Source: Gemmatimonadota bacterium
GTDB lineage: Bacteria; Gemmatimonadota; Gemmatimonadetes; Palauibacterales; KS3-K002
Reading direction: 5' to 3'
Length of the DNA stretch: 64,000 nt
NCBI GenBank assembly: GCA_020344015.1
Contig: CP070812.1
Span: forward strand, 1,970,586 to 2,034,585
Within the stretch, counting starts at the first letter, position 1. Every line of letters begins with the position of its first letter. The position numbers and the translations under genes were made by a program. The notes under the pieces were generated by a model, which was not told the DNA's origin, did no database searches, and saw nothing but the letters and a program-made list of their open reading frames with translations. Shown piece by piece: positions 8,891-15,445 of this stretch.

Positions 8891-9254
8891 CTCTGGCTCC
8901 CCGGCCTAGGTTCGACAGCCTCGTTAGACCCAAACGGGATCCGGCTAATCCCGGCGTGGTCCCGCACACGCAACAGGCCGTCCCAACCCTGCAACAGTTA
9001 GAAAACGCGCGCCGACCTTCAACGTTCCCTGCCCCGCCCAGCGCACGGCTTCAGGGCTCGGAATTCGGTGTACCAAGAGGCTAACCGCAAATGTCACTTA
9101 CACTTGCGCGACCAGCAATCCACCGATCGGGCCGGCGGCAGACGGCGCGCCGATGGTCAGAATGACCCCTGCACTCCGCCGTACGGCTTGCAATTTGCAG
9201 CTCTCGGGGCCTGTTTAGGAGCCCGCCGGGCGAGCAGCCGATCTCCTAACGACT

Positions 9255-9274
9255 TACTAAGCAACAACTTAGTA
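9255..9274. promoter_or_regulatory. Inverted repeat upstream of the sigma-54 promoter
   Basis: TACTAAG (9255-9261) and CTTAGTA (9268-9274) form a perfect 7-bp inverted repeat with a 6-nt centre. It lies about 15-35 nt upstream of the -24 element of the pilin promoter. It could be an activator or repressor site; it is AT-rich in a GC-rich region. No binding protein can be named from sequence. Confidence 0.4.
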
Positions 9275-9287
9275 TGCCAACACCGGG

Positions 9288-9303
9288 GGGCACGGAGCTT
9301 GCT
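9288..9303 (+). promoter_or_regulatory. Sigma-54 (-24/-12) promoter of the pilin gene
   Basis: The sequence GGGCACGGAGCTTGCT matches the RpoN consensus YTGGCACGRNNNTTGCW at every defined position except the first two. GG (9289-9290) and GC (9301-9302) are separated by exactly 10 nt. The predicted transcript starts near 9314, about 50 nt before the pilin ATG. Pilin genes in several proteobacteria are RpoN/PilR-dependent. No rpoN or pilR is in the window. Confidence 0.65.
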
Positions 9304-9364
9304 GCCCCTGGAGACCGTACCGCCGGTCTTGTCGCCCGCCACGGTGGTAGTATGGAGTCGTTTT

Positions 9365-9808
9365 ATGGCTTTGGCTTGTCGCATAGAGGCCCGCTGGGGG
9401 GCTGTCGCGAAGGGCGTGGCGGTCGGCATTCGGGGTTTCACGCTGATCGAGCTACTCGTCGTCGTCACCCTTATCGGGCTGATCACCATGATCGCGCTGC
9501 CCCGCTTCACCGGTGCGCGTGAGAAGGCCCACCGCTCACAGGCGATGACCGACCTCCGCTCGCTCGTCACCGCCCAGGAGGCCTACTGGGCCGACACCAA
9601 GGCCTACGCAGACGACGTTGCTTTGCTCACTCAGTTCAACCAGACCCCGGAAGTGGTCATCACGATTTTGGAGACGGCAGGCAACGGCTGGAGCGCTGAG
9701 GCGACGCACAACAGCGACTCGGACATCAAGTGCGGTTTCTACACCGGTCCTGTTACCGCACCTGTTGTAACTGGAATCGAGGAGGGGACCGTCAAGTGCG
9801 AGAAGTAG
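9365..9808 (+). CDS. Type IV pilin / pseudopilin (prepilin N-terminus)
   Basis: Secreted fibre subunit with a class III signal: the prepilin peptidase site lies between G and F in GIRG/FTLIELLVVVTLIGL, with the conserved Glu at +5, followed by one hydrophobic helix and a globular C-terminal domain of about 100 residues. Two Cys residues (IKCGFY and VKCEK) near the C-terminus could form the usual pilin disulfide loop. ATG 9365 was chosen because GGAG lies 7 nt upstream; it gives a 24-residue leader. GTG 9416 would give an 8-residue leader but lacks a good ribosome site. A sigma-54 promoter lies just upstream. It resembles the pilin at 15002 in length and in the RGWSA/NGWSAEA motif. Confidence 0.85.
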   Translation: MALACRIEARWGAVAKGVAVGIRGFTLIELLVVVTLIGLITMIALPRFTGAREKAHRSQAMTDLRSLVTAQEAYWADTKAYADDVALLTQFNQTPEVVITILETAGNGWSAEATHNSDSDIKCGFYTGPVTAPVVTGIEEGTVKCEK

Positions 9809-11076: not shown

Positions 11077-11829
11077 GTGAGCGAGCTGCTCGACCTGCTC
11101 GCCGCCCGCTCCGGCACCGTCTGCGTTGTCGGTGCCGGCGGCAAGAAGACCACGCTGTACCATCTGGCGCTGATGCATCCCGGCCGCGTCGGGCTCACCT
11201 GCACCGTGCCCAACACGCACTTTCCCGACGCGCTGGGCGCCTGCGTGGTCGTTGCCGAAGCTGCGGAGCTCGTGCGCGCCGTGGCTCTAGCGGCGGCGGC
11301 CCACCGGCTGGTCGCCTTCGCCCAGCCATCCGAGAAGACAGGGCGCTACGGGGGACTGGCTCCCGAGCTCATCGCGGAGATCCAGAGCGCCACGGGCTTC
11401 GATGTGCTGCTGGTCAAGTGCGATGGGGCGCGCATGCGCTGGATCAAAGCGCCTCAGAACGAAGAGCCGCTGATCCCAGAAACGGCCAACACGGTCATTC
11501 CGATTGTGTCGGCAAAGGCGTTCGGCGAACCGCTCACCGAGACCGTCGCGCACCGCCTCTCGCGCGTCGAGACCGTGACCGGCGCAGGATACGGAGAAGC
11601 CATTACTCCCCAACACGTCGCGCGCCTCCTGGCCCACCAAGAGGGCGCGCTCAAGAACACCGGCAGCGCCACCGTCGTCCCCATTATCAACATGGTAGAC
11701 AATTCGGAGCTCGAGGCCGTAGCCCGGGAAGCCGCCCGCGCGGCCCTCGGCCTCACCGACCGCTTCGACCGGATCGTCTTGACATCTCACCTCCAAACTG
11801 CCCGATTAGTCGGCGTAGTGGCCCAGTAA
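11077..11829 (+). CDS. yqeC: YqeC-type selenium-dependent hydroxylase accessory protein
   Basis: A 250-residue protein with an N-terminal P-loop-like motif VVGAGGKKTTL and the family block VKCDGARMRWIKAPQNEEPLIP (about residues 113-134), which matches the DGAR-x-x-x-KAP-x-x-x-EP-x-IP signature of YqeC. YqeC is known from comparative genomics to accompany selenium-dependent molybdenum hydroxylases and is thought to help insert or activate the labile selenium/Mo cofactor. No hydroxylase, yqeB or mocA lies nearby. Start GTG 11077 is 4 nt after the BNR gene stop. Its presence suggests selenium use in this organism, which matters for the TGA-containing gene at 13705. Confidence 0.8.
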   Translation: MSELLDLLAARSGTVCVVGAGGKKTTLYHLALMHPGRVGLTCTVPNTHFPDALGACVVVAEAAELVRAVALAAAAHRLVAFAQPSEKTGRYGGLAPELIAEIQSATGFDVLLVKCDGARMRWIKAPQNEEPLIPETANTVIPIVSAKAFGEPLTETVAHRLSRVETVTGAGYGEAITPQHVARLLAHQEGALKNTGSATVVPIINMVDNSELEAVAREAARAALGLTDRFDRIVLTSHLQTARLVGVVAQ

Positions 11830-11906: not shown

Positions 11907-12926
11907 ACGCTCAGACCGTTACGACTCGCGCTCGCCTTGATCATCACCGTCGGCTCGGCCGCCCAGGCCCAATGGGCCTCGAACCGGCCGGATAGCCACG
12001 CACCGTACGGTGTGATGATGGACCACACACATGAGCTGGGAGAGTTCGTGTTCTCCTACCGCTACATGTACATGCAGATGAACGGTCTGCGCATCGGCAC
12101 GGAAAAGGCCACCTCGAATGAAGTGTTGAACCTGGGGTACTCGGCCACGCCCACCGACATGCAGACGCAGATGCACATGTTAGCGGCGATGTTCGCGCCC
12201 ATCGAGAACTTCACTCTGGTGGCGATGCTGCCGTTCGCGGTGAAGAGCATGGACCACGCGACACGGAGTGGTCCGTTCACGACGGAGTCTTCTGGGGTGG
12301 CTGATTTGGAGGTCGCCGGCATGTGGAAGCTCGAGCCGGCAGACGACCAGCTGGTACACCTCGACCTCGCCCTCAGCTTCCCCAATGGCTCGACCGAAAA
12401 GACCGACGGTACCCCGATGGGTGACGATGTCTGCCTGCCCTACCCGGTTCAGATCGGGTCTGGGACCTTCGACCTAACTCCCGGGCTGACCTGTCTGGGC
12501 CAGGCGAGCAAATTCTCCTGGGGCCTCCAGGGCTTGACCACCTTCCGCCTCGGCGAGAACGACCAGGGCTACCGCTTCGGCCACCGGTACATGGCGACTA
12601 CCTGGGGAGCATACCACACCATCGACTGGCTGAGCGGTTCGCTACGACTCGACTGGACCAAAAAGGAAAACGTCGAGGGAGCCGATTCCGAACTCGATCC
12701 GGACGTCGTGCCGACCGCCGATCCGGACCTGCAGGGCTTCAACCGCTGGAGCGCCGGTTTCGGCATCAACACCTATATCCGTGAAGGCAGCTTCCGGGGC
12801 CTGCGAATCAACGGGGATTTCGTAATACCATTCGACCAGGACCTCAACGACCCGCAGCTCGAGACCGACCGGTACCTGATAGTCGGCCTTCAGTATTCCG
12901 GTCAGACGGGCTGGCTCGGAGGATGA
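11907..12926 (+). CDS. Met/His-rich outer-membrane beta-barrel (transporter-like) protein, probable ACG start
   Basis: A protein of about 339 residues: signal peptide LRPLRLALALIITVGSAAQA with cleavage after AQA, then a beta-rich chain with alternating aromatics typical of outer-membrane barrels. The N-terminal third is rich in Met and His (GVMMDHTHELGEF, RYMYMQMNG, DMQTQMHMLAAM, KSMDHATR), as in barrel proteins found near copper genes; metal binding is an inference. The frame is open far upstream, but there is no ATG, GTG or TTG between the yqeC end and the signal peptide. ACG at 11907 lies 6 nt after GGGAGG (11895-11900) and would place the start exactly at the signal peptide. The 3' end overlaps the next gene (ATGA). 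Confidence 0.75.
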   Translation, partial: TLRPLRLALALIITVGSAAQAQWASNRPDSHAPYGVMMDHTHELGEFVFSYRYMYMQMNGLRIGTEKATSNEVLNLGYSATPTDMQTQMHMLAAMFAPIENFTLVAMLPFAVKSMDHATRSGPFTTESSGVADLEVAGMWKLEPADDQLVHLDLALSFPNGSTEKTDGTPMGDDVCLPYPVQIGSGTFDLTPGLTCLGQASKFSWGLQGLTTFRLGENDQGYRFGHRYMATTWGAYHTIDWLSGSLRLDWTKKENVEGADSELDPDVVPTADPDLQGFNRWSAGFGINTYIREGSFRGLRINGDFVIPFDQDLNDPQLETDRYLIVGLQYSGQTGWLGG

Positions 12927-13660
12927 GCATGATCGGTCTGCTGCTTGCCGCGCTGCTTGCCGCTGGGGCGCCCGACCCGGGTGACGGATACCTATATCGC
13001 ACCCTCCTCGTGAGGGCAGCCCCGGGCAAGTTGCTCGAGCTCATCGACCTCTACAAGGAGCGGATGCCCATCTACGAGGCCGCCGGCGAACGGCCGTACT
13101 GGATGCGCCACACGCAGGGCGACCAGTGGGACCTGCTCCTCCTCTTCCCGATGGGCAGCTTCGCCGATTACTACGAGGCGGAGCGAATCGCTAGACGCGA
13201 GGCCGCGGCTCAAGCGTCCGGGCGTTTGGAGGAGGACTTCCAGCGCGAGCTGGACGCACGCATCTCCTGGCGTGAGGAAGTGTACGTCCTGGGTCCGGAG
13301 CTGGAGGTAGTCGACAGCGCCTTCGCCAGCGCGGGCTATTTCCACATCGAGGCGTTCGTAGCACTCCCGGGCAAACGCGAGGCGCTTCTCGAGCAGCGCC
13401 ACATGGAGAACGAGTATCTGGCCGGGATTGGCCGGCCGCTCAACCTCATCTTCACACGGGTGGCCGGCGCCGCGTGGGACCTCTATACCATCGGGTTCTA
13501 CAGAGATATCAAGCACTTCGCCGGCAGCGCCGACGTGCCAGACCAATTGGCGGAAACCTCGGCCCGGGCTGCAGGGTTTGAGGGGGCAGACCGGATCGGG
13601 ACGTACATGCGAACGCTGATCCAGTGGCACCGCGATACCCTAGCTACCGCCATACGCTGA
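12923..13660 (+). CDS. Exported NIPSNAP-like (dimeric alpha-beta barrel) protein
   Basis: A 245-residue protein with a short hydrophobic N-terminus (MIGLLLAALLAAGAPDPG), likely a signal peptide. Two similar halves follow, each with a strand-helix pattern of ferredoxin-like alpha-beta barrels: YLYRTLLVRAAPGKLLELIDLYKE and GYFHIEAFVALPGKREALLEQRH. The match to NIPSNAP/ABM-type domains is by pattern only. The ATG overlaps the stop of the upstream barrel gene, so the two are translationally coupled, and the DUF3179 gene follows after 44 nt. Another start, ATG 12929, is possible. Confidence 0.6.
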   Translation: MSMIGLLLAALLAAGAPDPGDGYLYRTLLVRAAPGKLLELIDLYKERMPIYEAAGERPYWMRHTQGDQWDLLLLFPMGSFADYYEAERIARREAAAQASGRLEEDFQRELDARISWREEVYVLGPELEVVDSAFASAGYFHIEAFVALPGKREALLEQRHMENEYLAGIGRPLNLIFTRVAGAAWDLYTIGFYRDIKHFAGSADVPDQLAETSARAAGFEGADRIGTYMRTLIQWHRDTLATAIR

Positions 13661-13704
13661 TTCGGGCATCCGTGCAAGAGAACCGGTAGAACCAGGAGTA
13701 ATCC

Positions 13705-14742
13705 ATGCCGCAACCATCACTGGTTCGACGTGGCCCTCATCTGTGGCCGATACTGGCAGCCCTCTCGCTCTTCGCCGCGTCCGACTCACCCGCCCAGGAG
13801 GAGTTCGACCTCGACCGCGCCTTCATTCTGGACAGTGCATCGGTCGAGCCGTTCTATGTGACGGAGACCCGCTCGCTTCGTCAGGCGCTCGACGAGGGCG
13901 TCATCAACAAAGCCATCCCTCTGGTGGTGATGCAGCACGAGGCCGGGGCGCTGGCGTTCGTCGTCGATCAACTTGCCTACCACCACATGGCACAGGGCGA
14001 AATCGATGGCGAACCATGGCTGGTCTCCTTTTGACCCGTCTGCAATACAGGGGTCAGTTTGACCCCGGTGATCAACGGAGAAACCCACCACTTCGAGTTT
14101 ATCGGACTATACGACGGTGTCTCAATTTTGAGGGACCGCGAGACCGGCGGCTATTGGCATCACATAACCGGCCAGTGTCTTTACGGTCCACTAGCGGGCG
14201 CTCGACTCGCTGGACTGTCAAACCTCTTGCACCTGAGCGTCGACCAAGCGCTCAACGTCTATGACCACCTCGAGATCGCGGTTTCCGACCGACCGATTCG
14301 CGGTACTCCAAGCCGCTGGTGGCCATTGGCCGAGAGTGTCCCGGCCCTGCCCGACAGACTCAGAAACACCATGGCCGGCGAGGACACACGCCGTTCGACG
14401 ATGGATGTCGGTCTCGGCGTGTGGAACCAGAGAATCCAGCGCTACTACCCGATGGAGTCCATCGCCGCCAGTGACGACTACGTCATCGACGAATTCGATG
14501 GTCGCCGCCTTCTCGTCTACTTCGATCCCGCAGGACACGCCCTGTCCGCGCTATACACACGGGCGACGAGCGCCGAGTGGAGAGACAAGGACCTCGTCCT
14601 GGACACCGGCGAGTTTATCCACGGCGGCGTTCTCCACGATCCGCAGGGCAGCCGGCTGGTGACAGAACGCCCGATGCAGCTTTTCACCAGGTGGTACGGG
14701 TATGCCCTGACGTTTCCGACAACCGAGATCTTCACGCCCTAG
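13705..14742 (+). CDS. DUF3179-family protein with in-frame TGA: candidate selenoprotein
   Basis: One reading frame runs from ATG 13705 (AGGAG 6 nt upstream) to TAG 14742, interrupted only by TGA at 14032-14034. Translating through gives 345 residues: signal peptide ending near SDSPAQ, then a DUF3179 core. The family has a Y/F-CP-L/V-C-G/N-TG motif after a hydrophobic strand. Here it reads WLVSF-TGA-PVCNTG, so the TGA stands exactly at the first Cys (position 110) and Cys113 is kept. Downstream the family block DRETGGYWHHITGQCLYGPLAG is intact, and no other stop or shift occurs in 708 nt. A SECIS-like hairpin follows (14050-14066). The alternatives are a fresh Cys-to-stop mutation (one base change from TGC) or a sequencing error. 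Function is unknown; a UxxC motif outside the cytoplasm suggests redox or metal chemistry. Confidence 0.7.
14032..14066 (+). promoter_or_regulatory. Candidate bacterial SECIS element (TGA plus hairpin)
   Basis: After the TGA (14032-14034) come 15 nt, then a perfect 7-bp stem: GGGGTCA (14050-14056) with TGACCCC (14060-14066), and apical loop GTT (14057-14059). The loop begins 22 nt after the TGA, with G as the first loop base. From memory, bacterial SECIS models require 16-37 nt to the loop, a loop of at least 3 nt and a G in the first two loop positions; all are met. The hairpin lies inside the coding sequence, as expected for bacteria. A competing pairing of TGACCC (14032-14037) with GGGTCA is possible. 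Confidence 0.55.
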
Positions 14743-15001: not shown

Positions 15002-15445
15002 ATGGCAAAGCCAGGCTTCACGCTCGTCGAGCTCCTAGCCGCCATCGTCATCATCTCCATCCTGGCGGCGATGACCTCGGCCACCGTTTATCGGTCGAAG
15101 AACGCTGCATACCTGGCCGCGATGCAGTCGGATCTGCGGAACTTGATCCGCGCGCAAGAGGAGTATTACGCGTCGAGCAGCATTTACTTCACAAACGACC
15201 CCGGAAACGCAGATGGGGCGACTTACACGAAGTCGGCTGACGGACTCGATTTCACCCCCAGCCAGAACGTGGTGATAAAGATCCGCGCCAATAGCAGAGG
15301 GTGGTCGGCCCGCGCCGAGCACGAGAACCGCAGCCCCGACAAGTTCTACTGCGCGGTCTTCATGGGCGACATAAATGCCTTCGACCCCGCCGAAGAAGAG
15401 GGCGTCATCGCCTGCGAGCCGAGGAAGAAAGGGAAGAAGAAGTGA
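15002..15445 (+). CDS. Type IV pilin-like protein
   Basis: A 147-residue prepilin with a very short leader: MAKPG/FTLVELLAAIVIISILAAM, with Glu at +5 after the predicted cleavage. A globular domain with Cys in KFYCAVF and IACEPRK follows, suggesting a C-terminal disulfide loop. The tail is Lys-rich (RKKGKKK). It is clearly related in plan to the pilin at 9365 (AQEEYYASSS versus AQEAYWADTK). GGGAGG lies about 13 nt upstream of the ATG. I found no sigma-54 type site in the 259-nt region 14743-15001 ahead of it, and nothing else nameable there. Confidence 0.85.
   Translation: MAKPGFTLVELLAAIVIISILAAMTSATVYRSKNAAYLAAMQSDLRNLIRAQEEYYASSSIYFTNDPGNADGATYTKSADGLDFTPSQNVVIKIRANSRGWSARAEHENRSPDKFYCAVFMGDINAFDPAEEEGVIACEPRKKGKKK

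Follow-up and report, generated by a model that had tools for sequence, protein, structure and literature searches.

The gene analysed here, which lies in a 64,000-nucleotide stretch of a Gemmatimonadota genome (the window), almost certainly codes for a true selenoprotein belonging to the DUF3179 family, as comparison of its sequence with those of its relatives indicates. The overall explanation proposed, which is held to be very probable, is that its in-frame TGA is decoded as Sec and that the product is an exported, selenol-based oxidoreductase with a Sec110–Cys113 redox pair. The gene forms a single plus-strand frame with exactly one internal stop, the TGA at codon 110, and terminates in TAG (Table 1). 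The context of this codon is WLVSF-U-PVCNTG, so that the TGA opens a UxxC motif. The product matches the DUF3179 model of Pfam (PF11376) with an E-value of 6.5e-16 and 59 bits, against a gathering cut-off of 27, and the same model is matched by all 36 aligned relatives (36/36); NCBIfam has no model matching the subfamily to which this gene belongs. The frame from 13705 to 14742, its lone TGA, the motif and their coordinates had been given in the earlier note and are right on direct reading of the sequence, as is its assignment of the gene to DUF3179.

Table 1. Features of the DUF3179 gene and its surroundings, in positions of the window.
Feature	Position	Strand	Remarks
DUF3179 gene, almost certainly encoding a selenoprotein	13705..14742	+	345 residues plus TAG; coding-type divergence on either side of the TGA
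AGGAG ribosome-binding site	13694..13698	+	6 nt 5' of the ATG; from reading the sequence
Probable signal peptide, residues 1–31 (RR, hydrophobic run, ...SPAQE)	13705..13797	+	suggested by the sequence and a low-confidence N-terminus in the model
Repeat 1, residues 66–190, with the Sec site; predicted Rieske-like beta domain	13900..14274	+	AlphaFold2 pLDDT 95.4 and PDB fold matches
His93 codon	13981..13983	+	almost invariant in Sec and Cys forms (alignment A3)
TGA codon for Sec110	14032..14034	+	shared as TGA by 26 distinct orthologues; Cys forms have TGC/TGT
Cys113 codon, putative resolving/partner Cys of UxxC	14041..14043	+	invariant in alignment A3
SECIS hairpin GGGGTCA-GTT-TGACCCC	14050..14066	+	apical loop 14057–14059; from folding; kept, with covariation, in 18 relatives
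Start of repeat 2, residues 227–282	14383..14550	+	degenerate, without His and UxxC; hhalign against repeat 1

A lone TGA in one gene is by itself compatible with a nonsense mutation or a sequencing error, which would make the gene a pseudogene or the stop a misread Cys codon, and nonsense mutation had initially been named as the main rival of Sec insertion. Codon-level reading of the fetched loci has revealed, however, TGA at the identical codon in at least 26 distinct subfamily genes, which come from separate assemblies and four phyla, namely Gemmatimonadota, Planctomycetota (L012), Myxococcota (L013, L058–L060) and Neomarinimicrobiota (L014). The 19 long homologues found in a phylum sample of 298 genomes each have a single TGA as their only internal stop (19/19), and random downstream stops do not appear in them. 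In the 234 codons that follow the TGA of the window gene, the differences to the nearest orthologue number 69, 54 and 123 at codon positions 1, 2 and 3, with zero stops; because these differences concentrate at third positions and no stop interrupts them, this part of the gene evolves as coding sequence. Against the shared TGA, the coding-type divergence beyond it and the covarying SECIS element described below, mutation or error keeps only a very slight probability for this gene, and for the family as a whole that reading is already refuted. The sequence evidence settles that TGA-interrupted DUF3179 genes are not broken.

The distribution of the two forms points in the same direction as a Sec-for-Cys exchange. 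At the TGA codon, distant paralogues carry TGC or TGT, one of them (L002) being in the same genome. Within the subfamily, one member (L061) has TGC at the Sec codon and is nested within the Sec clade, and another relative (L015) has lost both Sec and Cys; the gene is absent from G587, the only same-genus genome tested. In the tree, 23 Sec rows and the nested Cys row form one clade (support 100/99), and a second Sec group (L042, L050 and L052, with VATY-U-TLCHTG) and a lone Sec form (L062) are placed among Cys forms, which indicates repeated exchange between Sec and Cys. In Gemmatimonadota and Myxococcota, DUF3179 has a subfamily that is widespread and almost always contains Sec. One further genome of the window's phylum (L031) carries two Sec-containing DUF3179 genes in tandem.

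Bacterial SECIS elements are described, in the rules quoted from PMC13188914, by a loop of 3–9 nt, an upper stem of 4–16 bp, a distance of 16–37 nt from the UGA and a G in the first two loop positions. The hairpin downstream of the TGA, with 7 bp, the loop GTT, G first in the loop and 22 nt from the UGA to the loop, lies within every one of these bounds. Across 18 relatives, 89.6% of the cells of this helix are paired, and its covariation score is higher than those of all 500 shuffles and of every slid control. One column pair of the alignment (21/33) takes five pair types (G-U, A-U, C-G, G-C and U-A); only two pairs have changes on both sides, a count that on alignment A2 is not above the shuffles (177/500), and the paired cells on A2 are above them. 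In these GC-rich genomes, Sec and Cys forms cannot be told apart by the energy of single-sequence hairpins (means of about −8.9 vs −8.3 kcal/mol), and the two are separated only by the position of the hairpin and by covariation. In the second Sec group, the matching place is occupied by another hairpin, CCACACC-GGTCT-GGTGTGG. A search of the window for other frames with a TGA near a Cys returned three only, all unconvincing.

It could also be argued that the locus makes two products, a 109-residue N-terminal protein stopping at the TGA and a C-terminal protein starting from the internal TTG 14059, and ORF finders do split the gene at the TGA and list both pieces. Nevertheless, that TTG sits within the SECIS hairpin, the TGA aligns with the invariant Cys of the Cys forms, and the TGA position falls inside both the Pfam domain and the predicted fold, all of which leaves two separate proteins a most improbable outcome.

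The genome, which consists of one contig of 4.81 Mb, contains the machinery that decoding of the UGA as Sec would need. It has a tRNA-Sec (78 bits, above the family cut-off), on which ARAGORN agrees (tRNA-SeC with anticodon TCA), together with selA (530 bits), selB (352 bits) and selD (368 bits; L025, C1:3394279-3395196). The selD gene is itself a selenoprotein gene, with a single TGA at SHGAG-U-ACK and a stable hairpin after it, and UGA is therefore expected to be read as Sec in this organism independently of the DUF3179 gene. Within the phylum sample, tRNA-Sec is present in 15 of the 15 genomes that have the subfamily vs 215 of 298 overall. Two draft genomes depart from this pattern: selA was not found in that of the Planctomycetota relative (L012/G299), and a distant Sec-form genome (G236) is absent from the tRNA-Sec list. 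The earlier note had proposed Sec for Cys at UxxC and suggested looking for the sel genes and at the aligned codon of homologues; both inspections favoured it, and with the sel genes, the TGA kept in orthologues, the Cys of paralogues and the SECIS element the proposal is now strongly supported. The observations that the note named as refuting it, where they concern the sel genes, the close relatives and stops further downstream, did not turn up. A gene for YqeC, a selenium cofactor biosynthesis protein (TIGR03172, 145 bits), is located in the window at 11077–11829 (+), 1.9 kb upstream of the DUF3179 gene, and the genome probably also uses a selenium-dependent molybdenum hydroxylase cofactor.

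The Sec site is embedded in a conserved domain that has been duplicated. In an alignment of 36 Sec and Cys forms (A3), the residues of repeat 1 that vary little or not at all include His93 (column H28, near-invariant), Sec/Cys110 and Cys113 (columns C45 and C48, both invariant), Asp144 and Trp151. Residues 227–282 are a second, degenerate copy of this repeat (hhalign probability 96.3, E 1.6e-9), in which Asp-Pro-Ala-Gly takes the place of UPVC. AlphaFold2 models the full-length protein with a pLDDT of 84.9 and a pTM of 0.80, and repeat 1 with a pTM of 0.86. No relative was found in the PDB by sequence; by structure, the ten best PDB fold matches of the repeat 1 model in Foldseek all hold Rieske-fold domains, the top one being a NirD-type protein (3c0d; probability 1.00, E 6.9e-3, TM 0.51/0.58), with none reaching E 0.001. 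The full-length model likewise matches Rieske proteins. Repeat 1 is thus predicted from the model to have a Rieske-like topology. Membership of the Rieske family is not claimed, since the sequence-profile link is not significant (no Rieske match in Pfam; hhalign probability 2–3) and the CxH...CxxH ligand set is absent from the invariant residues of A3, apparently not being conserved in DUF3179. A thioredoxin-like selenoprotein was also considered and rejected, as the model is mostly beta with a duplicated domain and no thioredoxin fold was matched in Pfam or among the fold matches listed. The full-length model also resembles an uncharacterised protein of Indivirus ILV1 (A0A1V0SD44; E 1.9e-6, probability 1.00).

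The proposed mechanism begins with SelB, which would deliver Sec-tRNA at UGA110, because this codon takes the place of the first Cys in a CxxC motif, the genome has the Sec machinery and the SECIS element lies at the canonical distance. Sec110 and Cys113 would then form a selenenylsulfide/dithiol-type pair at the end of a beta-strand in the Rieske-like repeat; that they act as a redox pair is likely, judging from the UxxC motif. The conserved His93 may assist this pair, and the degenerate second repeat would complete the fold. The product is quite probably exported, and it would work as an extracytoplasmic selenol-based oxidoreductase in thiol/disulfide or peroxide/metal-linked chemistry. In two relatives (L013 and L014) the N-terminus shows no evident signal peptide, so the location may differ between phyla.

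The main functional rival is a selenoprotein whose Sec/Cys/His site holds an Fe-S type centre or a metal (e.g., Cu, Hg or Zn), and which serves as a carrier of electrons or metal rather than performing thiol or peroxide chemistry. The Rieske ferredoxins and NirD among the best fold matches would suit such a role, as would the conserved His near UxxC in the sequence, but NirD has the Rieske fold without the cluster, the profile-level link to Rieske proteins is lacking and so is the conserved ligand set, and a metal-binding or electron-carrier role is accordingly considered unlikely. A bolder structural idea, in which DUF3179 would be a tandem Rieske-like protein whose Sec/Cys pair replaces the iron-sulphur cluster site, so that a Rieske scaffold would carry a Sec redox centre, is put forward tentatively, with somewhat less than even confidence. 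To our knowledge, no Rieske fold hosting Sec has been described.

Within several kb around 16 relatives and the window gene, no conserved gene neighbourhood was found beyond the gene's own two halves, and as the neighbours are not conserved they indicate no partner for the selenol oxidoreductase proposed. In the window, a 245-residue gene without a Pfam or NCBIfam match (12923–13660, +) ends 44 nt upstream on the same strand; it could be an operon partner, although the relatives do not keep the same neighbouring genes. Two genes with type IV pilin-like segments (GFTLIELL / GFTLVELL) flank the region at 9068–9808 and 15002–15445.

DUF3179 (pfam11376, motif UxxC/T) appears in published lists of predicted prokaryotic selenoprotein families (PMC9312934, 2022; PMC13188914, 2026), both of which cite for it the in-silico study of Zhang and Gladyshev 2007. 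The suggestion in the earlier note of a candidate new selenoprotein family does not hold, since the family is already known from these lists, to which the gene adds a new and well-supported member. The consulted literature passages that name the family give no function for it, and no description of the internal duplication or of a Rieske-like fold was found in the parts of the literature searched; the distribution and the SECIS evidence are new here, as are the internal duplication and the predicted Rieske-like fold of the Sec-bearing repeat. If that fold is true, it would provide the first structural lead on the function of the uncharacterised DUF3179, together with a clear site.

The published DUF3179 selenoproteins, among whose representatives are MBW1804167.1 and MDJ0986319.1, share with the window gene the Pfam family and the UxxC motif (UPVC here), their Sec having been predicted in silico. 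The two are matched by family and motif as listed and may or may not belong to one subfamily; the window gene and most of its relatives come from Gemmatimonadota and Myxococcota. Cys-form DUF3179 proteins, such as the paralogue L002, have the same fold region, with CPLCxT/CTVCxTG aligned with UPVCNTG, but differ in having TGC/TGT for TGA, in being about 26–36% identical and in a match confined to repeat 1 in single-sequence search. Rieske-fold domains (NirD 3c0d, ferredoxins 3gce and 5bok) resemble the predicted topology of repeat 1 (Foldseek probability 0.98–1.00, TM ~0.5–0.6), whereas they show no significant profile similarity to it, and DUF3179 has UxxC instead of a conserved CxH...CxxH. 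Finally, the classic UxxC/CxxU thioredoxin-like selenoproteins are like DUF3179 in carrying Sec for Cys within CxxC, but DUF3179 is mostly beta, with a duplicated domain, and does not have the thioredoxin fold.
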